From Geodermatophilus sp. TF02-6 (lineage in GTDB: Bacteria > Actinomycetota > Actinomycetes > Mycobacteriales > Geodermatophilaceae), in assembly GCF_003319115.1 (NCBI RefSeq), contig NZ_QOHF01000005.1, positions 124,001-188,000 of the forward strand: 64,000 nucleotides of DNA. Reading direction: 5' to 3'. Made by a program: the position numbers and the translations under genes. The notes under the pieces are model-generated. The model had not been told where the DNA came from. It searched no databases and saw only the letters and a list, made by a program, of their open reading frames with translations. Position 1 is the stretch's first letter. Every line of letters starts with the position of its first letter. Positions 10,782-15,005 of the stretch are shown in pieces.

Positions 10782-13172
<2,391 letters not shown>

Positions 13173-13364
13173 CCGAGGCCCTCGCAGACACCGGGATCAG
13201 ACACCGGGAGAGGAGTTCTCCGCCCGGGTGTCCGGACGACCTCGTGCCGGTCGCACCGGCACGCCGACCTGCGTGTCCAGCCGGATCGGTCCTGTTCGAT
13301 CGTGCGGCGCCCGGGCCGACGTGCCCGGGTCGGCCGGGACGGGCGTCTCCCTAGACTCCGGCGC

Positions 13365-15005
13365 ATGCTGCTGTCCGACCGTGACATCACGGTTGCCATC
13401 GCCCAGGGGCGGCTCGGCATCGAGCCCTACGACGAGGCGCTCCTGCAGCCGTCGAGCATCGACGTCCGGTTGGACCGCTTCTTCCGGGTCTTCAACAACG
13501 CCCGGTACACGCACATCGACCCGGCGCAGCAGCAGGACGACCTGACCACCCTGGTCGAGCCGGACGGTGACGAGCCGTTCGTCCTGCACCCCGGCGAGTT
13601 CGTGCTCGGCTCCACCCTCGAGGTCGTCACCGTCCCCGACGACCTGGCCGCGAGGCTGGAGGGCAAGGCCCTGGCGCTGCAGACCCCGGTCCCCACCCCG
13701 GCCGGGTGGACGACGATGGGCGAGCTCGCCGTGGGCGACGAGGTCTTCGACGACACCGGTGTCCCGTGCCGGGTGGTCGCCGCCACGGGGGTGATGCTCG
13801 GCCGGCCCTGCCGCGAGGTCGAGCTCAGCGACGGCTCGCTGTTCACCGCCGACGCCTCGCACCTGTGGGTGACCACGAGCGAGCAGGAGCGTCGGCCCGG
13901 CCGTCCGCGGACGGCGTCGGCCAAGACGACCGACGAGATCGCCGCCACCCTGCGGTACGGCGAGGAGTCCAACCACCAGATCGCGCTGGCCGGGGCCGCC
14001 CGGTACCCCGCGGCCCACCTGCCCGTCGACCCCTACGTGCTGGGCTACTGGCTCGGCGGCGGCGCCAGCACCACCGGCGAGATCACCGTCGGTCGGGGGG
14101 ACGAGGAGGTCCTGGCGCACGTCGCGGCCGCCGGCTACCAGGTCCGGCCGGCGACCAGCCCGTCGACGTACCGGCTGGGTGCAGCGGCGGGCGACGACCG
14201 CCACGGACACCGGCGGACAGCGGGTGGACGCTCCGGCGGGAGCGGGTCGCTGTCCAGTCACCTGCGAGCGCTCGGCCTGCTCGGCGACGAACGCGTGCCG
14301 GCCGCCTACCTGACCGCCGACGTCGACCAGCGCCTGGCCCTCCTCCAGGGGCTGATGGACGCCGGCGGCCACGTCGACGAGCACGGCCGCTGCGAGTTCC
14401 TCGATCCGCGGGAGGCCGTCTCCCGGGCGGTGCACGAGGTGGCGGCCAGCCTCGGGCTGCGTCCCACGCGGCGCAAGGAGCCGGCGGTGCGCGACGGCAT
14501 CGAGCGCGGACCGGTCTTCCAGGTGCAGTTCACGCCGCGGGTCCCGGTGTTCCGGCTGGCCCGCAAGCTGGCGCGGCTCCGGACCGACGACCGCGGCCAC
14601 GAGTTCCGCGCCGTCCGCGCCGTCCGCCCGGTGCCGACCGTGCCGGTCCGCTGCATCCAGGTCTCCTCGCCCAGCGGGGTGTTCCTCATCGGGGAGGGCT
14701 ACGTGCCCACCCACAACTCGTCCCTGGGGCGGCTGGGCCTGCTCACCCACTCCACCGCGGGCTTCGTCGACCCGGGGTTCTCCGGGCACATCACGCTCGA
14801 GCTGTCGAACGTGGCCAACCTGCCGATCACGCTGTGGCCGGGCATGAAGATCGGCCAGCTGTGCCTGTTCCGGCTGACCAGCCCGGCCGAGCACCCGTAC
14901 GGGTCGGCGGTGTACGGCTCCCGCTACCAGGACCAGCGCGGCCCCACGCCGTCCCGCTCGTTCCGCAACTTCACCCGCGCCGAGACACGGCGTCCGGCTC
15001 CCTGA
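13365..15005 (+). CDS. dcd: dCTP deaminase, interrupted by an in-frame intein
   Basis: Deaminates dCTP to dUTP (some actinobacterial forms go on to dUMP) for thymidylate synthesis. The host protein is 101 + 95 = 196 residues once the intein is removed, the normal Dcd length: residues 1-101 run from [20 protein letters not shown] to LAARLEGK, and the C-extein starts [15 protein letters not shown]. The intein lies between K and S of the G-K-S-S-L-G-R motif, which contains the nucleotide-binding and catalytic Ser and Arg, so the enzyme cannot work until splicing is complete. ATG 13365 is chosen because MLLSDRDI is the family start. The 3' end overlaps the convergent MFS gene by 35 bp. Confidence 0.95.
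13668..14717 (+). other. Class 3 intein (350 aa) in dCTP deaminase, endonuclease motifs degenerate
   Basis: Begins with Ala ([20 protein letters not shown]) and ends VPTHN before Ser+1. It has the class 3 W-C-T triplet: Trp in block B ([10 protein letters not shown]), Cys in block F (PVRCIQVSS) and Thr in block G (PTHN). LAGLIDADG blocks are recognisable at [10 protein letters not shown] and [12 protein letters not shown], but the catalytic acidic residue of each (usually LGxWLGDG and LMDxDG) is Gly. Splicing residues look complete, so the element should splice while its homing nuclease should be dead. Assignment rests on motif recognition. Confidence 0.9.

Follow-up and report, generated by a model that had tools for sequence, protein, structure and literature searches.

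The dCTP deaminase of Geodermatophilus sp. TF02-6 is interrupted in its active-site loop by a class 3 intein with Gly in place of both catalytic Asp residues of the endonuclease

We have analyzed a stretch of 64,000 nucleotides from the soil bacterium Geodermatophilus sp. TF02-6 (contig NZ_QOHF01000005.1, positions 124,001 to 188,000), hereafter the window, in which the gene of dCTP deaminase (Dcd) is interrupted by an intein. The gene lies on the plus strand, from an ATG at 13365 to a stop codon at 15005, and encodes 546 aa. The open reading frame list opens this frame at a GTG at 13302; the ATG at 13365 was adopted instead because the aligned Dcd begins there. The intein frame is open over its 350 codons (13668-14717), with no stop. 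The features of the gene are given below, with intein residues numbered from Ala1 and counts referring to the 18 inteins found at this Dcd site or to a set of 40 aligned inteins.

13365-13667, plus strand: N-extein of Dcd, 101 aa, with ATG start, ending in ...RLEGK
13668-14717, plus strand: class 3 intein, 350 aa
13668-13670, plus strand: Ala1, no N-terminal nucleophile; Ala in 18/18 Dcd inteins
13809-13811, plus strand: Cys48, aligned to the redox partner Cys48 of M. smegmatis DnaBi1
13860-13862, plus strand: His65 (block B:10), invariant
13866-13868, plus strand: Trp67 (W of the Trp-Cys-Thr triplet, WCT; B:12), invariant
14058-14060, plus strand: Gly131, in the place of the catalytic Asp of the first LAGLIDADG motif; Asp in 15/18 Dcd inteins
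14289-14291, plus strand: Glu208, where Lys prevails in other copies (at least 90% of the 40 rows; 11/18 Dcd inteins)
14364-14366, plus strand: Gly233, in the place of the catalytic Asp of the second LAGLIDADG motif; Asp in 14/18 Dcd inteins
14652-14654, plus strand: Cys329 (C of WCT; F:4), branch-point nucleophile, invariant
14709-14717, plus strand: Thr348 (T of WCT; G:5), His349 and Asn350, in 18/18 Dcd inteins
14718-15005, plus strand: C-extein of Dcd (Ser+1, SSLGRLGLL...) and stop, 95 aa, coding part 14718-15002
14718-14723, plus strand: codons TCG TCC of Ser+1 and Ser+2, TCN-TCN as in 6/6 family carriers

The exteins correspond to residues 1-101 and 452-546 of the 546-aa frame and give, once joined, a Dcd of 196 aa. 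Both match the dCTP deaminase model TIGR02274 in two stretches, with 192.4 bits for a cut-off of 92.8. When aligned to the solved Dcd 2qxx, the two halves abut exactly, with 0 residues missing, at E-G-K/S-S-L-G-R (the slash marks the insertion point). Searching the PDB with the intein by phmmer placed class 3 DnaB inteins at the top (6rix with an E-value of 1.1e-32, then 6riy and 6bs8), and the intein ends of 6rix and 6bs8 align at residues 1 and 350 of the Dcd intein. Class 3 inteins are defined, in the available text of PMC3196547, by a residue 1 other than Ser, Thr or Cys, and here this residue is Ala. The WCT triplet of the class is complete (Trp67, Cys329 and Thr348), as are the residues general to inteins, with His65, the C-terminal His349-Asn350 and the nucleophile Ser+1. 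His65, Trp67, Cys329, Thr348 and Asn350 are invariant across the 40 aligned inteins, and all 18 Dcd inteins have these five in addition to Ala1, Cys48 and His349. The AlphaFold model of the intein (predicted local distance difference test, pLDDT, of 93.7, with a less confident loop near residues 171-190) resembles the solved class 3 DnaB inteins over the splicing domain and PI-SceI overall, and class 3 inteins lead the structure matches that cover the splicing domain alone. Given these solved-structure and fold matches, we regard the identity of the intein as settled: the Geodermatophilus Dcd carries a class 3 intein in the conserved GK/SSLGR active-site loop. The initial annotation had placed a 350-aa, Ala-initial intein with the WCT triplet at 13668-14717, splitting GK/SSLGR of Dcd; alignment to the exteins and to PDB inteins confirms its location and length, and all class residues were found. 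Its further claim that both LAGLIDADG motifs hold Gly for the catalytic Asp is borne out by alignment to family copies that have Asp.

The residue roles in the triphosphate-binding loop are known from E. coli Dcd, and because the insertion cuts this loop, Dcd would form only after excision. The precursor is expected to be inactive, and splicing to begin with an attack of Cys329 on the bond between Lys(-1) and Ala1; the chain would then pass to Ser+1, which takes over the N-extein, and cyclisation of Asn350 would release the 196-aa Dcd. Dcd exteins were found at one genome location only (E ≤ 0.001), so a working Dcd should require splicing. Since the exteins are also under strong purifying selection, with ratios of nonsynonymous to synonymous change (omega) of 0.02-0.16 in 15 carrier pairs, this implies that the intein splices. 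One could argue that it no longer does, leaving Dcd either as a pseudogene or as an enzyme made of two cleaved halves. We deem this highly improbable, since the frame is open, all splicing residues are intact, and the selection on the exteins and their single location speak against it. By extension, nucleotide metabolism might depend on splicing of the Dcd intein, although E. coli dcd mutants are viable and a separate dUTPase gene is present in Geodermatophilus sp. TF02-6.

Regarding the endonuclease domain, the two LAGLIDADG helices are present in a PI-SceI-like fold, and the Asp residues of both motifs are those that we take to be catalytic. This role agrees with the available text of PMC8966425. 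In the window copy neither motif has its acidic residue: the first reads VLGYWLGGG, with Gly131 replacing the Asp, and the second likewise has Gly at 233. The five other copies from the family Geodermatophilaceae (G003, G004, G010, G023 and G037) have both Asp residues, in LGYWLGDG and LMDSDG, and the loss of both is thus assigned to the window lineage. The endonuclease would be unable to cut DNA and no break would be made for homing, so the element would now be inherited vertically. Ten copies, chosen because neither motif is damaged in them, served as reference: changes in the window copy affect 0 of 37 invariant splicing columns and 5 of 76 invariant endonuclease columns. Judging from its sequence, the window copy very probably still splices but no longer homes.

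Within the genus Geodermatophilus, the intein is found in 5 of 26 genomes, while 20 have a Dcd that is uninterrupted at exactly this point; the remaining one, G021, has only a Dcd fragment and no rpoB match, and was counted neither way. At the family level, 6 of 112 genomes carry it. The initial annotation had called the intein fixed, which does not hold with so few carriers in the genus and the family, and with the other family copies retaining Asp. The comparison with the Dcd of relatives that it had proposed yielded, besides the uninterrupted genes of the genus, a total of 18 Dcd inteins at the same site: an order sample contained it in 15 of 397 genomes, 9 of them beyond the family, and a class sample in 4 of 394, 3 of them new. 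These counts use a cut-off of E ≤ 1e-64, at which copies that have diverged or decayed could have been overlooked; each sample gave one additional match, G428 and G784, and these two were DnaB inteins. The carriers are scattered on an rpoB tree (29 genomes, 3567 columns), where the six of the family need six changes, at least five of them forced by well-supported branches.

Among the 18 Dcd inteins, the first Asp is kept in 15 and the second in 14; L165 has lost both and L160 the second. L167 (181 aa) is without the whole endonuclease, and large internal deletions are seen in L164, L165, L166 and L176, whose splicing residues are all present. The Dcd inteins form a Dcd-specific class 3 clade, patchily distributed in Actinobacteria, in which the endonuclease has been lost more than once and the splicing residues have been kept, a pattern that agrees with the invasion-degeneration-loss cycle of inteins. 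Related genomes thus offer a natural series at one site, with intact, point-dead, partly deleted and fully deleted endonucleases and empty alleles, which lends itself to the question of whether splicing is retained for a function once homing has gone. The 181-aa copy (L167/L172, G152:C17), a Dcd class 3 mini-intein without endonuclease, is also a possible compact splicing tool.

Taking these results together, we are confident that the window holds a class 3 intein in the Dcd active-site loop that should splice via Cys329, very probably has a dead endonuclease and would now be inherited vertically, as part of a Dcd clade in the invasion-degeneration-loss cycle. Several points weigh against this interpretation. 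The Pfam intein-splicing model falls below threshold on the Dcd intein, NCBIfam names only Dcd and weaker relatives, and the Pfam LAGLIDADG models are below cut-off, so family libraries alone would miss this intein. The contrast between splicing and endonuclease columns is not significant (p 0.17), nor is the amino-acid contrast between the two domains marked (p 0.20). Three copies with intact motifs vary as much or more at the invariant endonuclease columns (L163, 5/81; L174, 5/81; L175, 8/84); only the identity of the lost residues, and not the number of changes, singles out the window copy. Relaxation of its endonuclease is mild: the codon changes unique to it are 11 nonsynonymous and 8 synonymous, versus 11 and 30 in the other five copies together (p 0.04), and endonuclease omega is 0.27-0.35 in the 5 pairs with the window copy versus 0.17-0.26 in the 10 other pairs. 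Such mild relaxation is compatible with a recent loss of the endonuclease. Besides, 13 of the 15 carrier pairs show a higher synonymous divergence (dS) in the intein than in the exteins, in both parts (the exceptions being G010-G023, where it is below, and G023-G004, which is mixed), so no recent transfer is visible among the sampled carriers. A sequencing error at the two Gly codons is conceivable, and we infer both splicing and the lack of cutting from the sequence.

A last point on this side is that the endonuclease, dead for cutting, could be kept for intein folding or DNA binding. The domain is complete and, except for the loop mentioned above, confidently folded, its pairwise omega is well below 1, and in the available text of PMC8966425 the PhoVMA intein is without the catalytic Asp yet has an endonuclease scaffold. 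Against such a role, L167 has no domain and the four copies with large deletions keep all splicing residues, which makes the domain dispensable in the Dcd clade, and a recent death of the endonuclease would yield the same omega. We therefore consider a DNA-binding or structural role unlikely.

In order to contextualize the Dcd intein, we built a quick tree of 62 rows, which has several long phage branches and no class 1 outgroup, uses 17 of 45 viral loci, and leaves out a DnaB duplicate (L036) and L227 and L229-L231, where no intein was found by pattern. The 18 Dcd inteins form one clade (100 in the Shimodaira-Hasegawa-like approximate likelihood ratio test, SH-aLRT), apart from 27 actinobacterial DnaB inteins (94), and their nearest neighbours, through weak branches, are phage class 3 inteins. 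An origin from the host's own DnaB intein, suggested by the resemblance of GK/STLGL to GK/SSLGRL, is not supported, as the two groups lie in separate clades. Of the 17 viral relatives inspected (out of 45), 13 insert after Gly-Lys. The P-loop Lys/Thr is a classic insertion position, according to the available text of PMC5050341, and the GK/SS loop of Dcd looks like a stand-in for it. The closest solved structures, the mycobacterial DnaB inteins DnaBi1 of M. smegmatis (6bs8) and MchDnaB-1 of M. chimaera (6rix), share Ala1, WCT, Cys48 and the splicing fold with the Dcd intein, with 51-52% identity and a root-mean-square deviation of 1.2-1.7 over 125-130 residues, but they reside in DnaB and are mini-inteins of 139-146 aa; the DnaB relatives inspected have GK/ST or similar as their site. 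PI-SceI (1vde) differs from the Dcd intein in being an active endonuclease, with Cys1, in yeast VMA1. The PhoVMA intein (7qst) differs, in the available text of PMC8966425, in its catalytic Cys1, its VMA host protein and its archaeal origin.

The same Dcd loop is also interrupted in cyanophage CL131 (MG209611 ORF069), by an intein whose self-excision in E. coli is reported in the available text of PMC6293099. That intein is of another class, with Cys as first and +1 residue, and interrupts GKSTYAR/C, five residues downstream; its boundaries are 132-483 in our analysis versus 133-483 in that text, which also gives it an HNH domain and states such Dcd intein genes for two bacteria, in Proteobacteria and Chloroflexi. 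When titles and the beginnings of abstracts in the open-licence literature were examined, we found no Dcd intein in Actinobacteria. Within that scope, the Dcd intein is an element of known kind whose insertion site we did not find described; with it, the hosts of class 3 inteins come to include a metabolic enzyme that is interrupted in its active-site loop.

The DnaB gene of the same genome (L001/L243, G000:C47:106801-110292) has two inteins of its own. The first is a 303-aa class 3 intein at GVGK/STLGL, with the degraded endonuclease motifs LGVELSTR and LLDAGG, and the second insert is Cys-initial and intein-like, with GDG and TDG motifs as judged by eye. The DnaB class 3 intein is present in 18 of 26 Geodermatophilus genomes (L212-L228, L232-L243, L028), and several of the DnaB inteins of the genus have decayed motifs (LLDAGG, LGVWLGGG).

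Cys48 raises the question of conditional splicing. In M. smegmatis DnaBi1, according to the available text of PMC6195587, H2O2 links Cys48 with the catalytic Cys118 and splicing is inhibited. By analogy, the Dcd intein could be kept as a redox (or metal) switch: upon oxidation, a Cys48-Cys329 disulfide would leave Dcd inactive and the dUTP supply would fall until the stress passes. Cys48 and Cys329 are aligned to Cys48 and Cys118 of DnaBi1 and are found in 18/18 Dcd inteins, and the window copy, though without the homing residues, is unchanged at 37/37 invariant splicing columns. However, the same text describes that DnaBi1 does not splice with C118A or with any of the C48 mutants tried. Both cysteines being required for splicing itself, their conservation needs no switch, and the intein is absent from 20 of the 26 Geodermatophilus genomes. 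A switch thus seems quite improbable, and the Cys48/Cys329 pair would serve as a testable prediction rather than as evidence of regulation.

Finally, we compared the two Ser codons that follow the insertion site (14718-14723 in the window) in 25 genomes of the genus and in G037, which makes 26 in all (window, L003-L027, L033). All six carriers have TCN-TCN, while each of the 20 empty alleles has exactly one AGY, either first (AGY-TCN, 11 alleles) or second (TCN-AGY, 9 alleles). No single synonymous substitution leads from TCN to AGY. Dcd has 10 further invariant Ser codons; the class of 9 is the same throughout the 26 genomes, and that of one differs in a single carrier. The G+C content at third codon positions (GC3) of the empty alleles is 0.97-1.00 along the gene and 0.79 within 8 codons of the site, and in 16 of the 20 unusual A/T-ending codons occupy a stretch of some 16 codons with the empty site in its middle. 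GC3 is lower at the site in 16 of the 20 empty alleles (mean difference -0.20), and the dip is absent in the other four; GC3 is also lower there in 5 of the 6 Dcd carriers, the window copy being the exception. Outside the genus, the difference averages -0.02 in 68 empty alleles (lower in 37; p 1e-5 versus the genus), four Geodermatophilus having been dropped from 72.

At the class 3 site of DnaB in the genus, TCN is found in 18/18 carriers and AGY in 6/8 empty alleles (p 0.0001). In other genera of the family, 2/2 empty species also have AGY, and AGY occurs in one of the six carriers assigned to other named genera (carriers L168, L173 and L177 were left out), so ancestry or co-conversion may explain the DnaB pattern. 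The upstream GC3 dip of DnaB is seen in two species of other genera as well, and only the Dcd dip therefore has a control. At Dcd outside the genus, TCN-TCN occurs in 4/12 other carriers and 24/68 empty alleles (a gene present as duplicate loci entering once), with no association; this and the AGY codons of DnaB empties from other genera led us to reject the pattern as a general rule. The p-values assume independent species, and the pattern was noticed post hoc.

Homing could have carried flanking TCN codons along, or AGY alleles could be those that escaped it. Near the site, the carriers are slightly more alike than randomly drawn sets of six (p 0.03), which favours some co-conversion. That host alleles of the genus are immune to intein homing through a switch of serine codon class at the insertion site is a tentative proposal, which we hold to be possible though doubtful; if the pattern reflects target-site immunity, it would constitute a readable record of intein-host conflict at synonymous sites. 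As for the neighbourhood of dcd, its upstream gene at 10782-13172, on the same strand, would encode a UvrA-like ABC excinuclease paralogue, judging from its translation.
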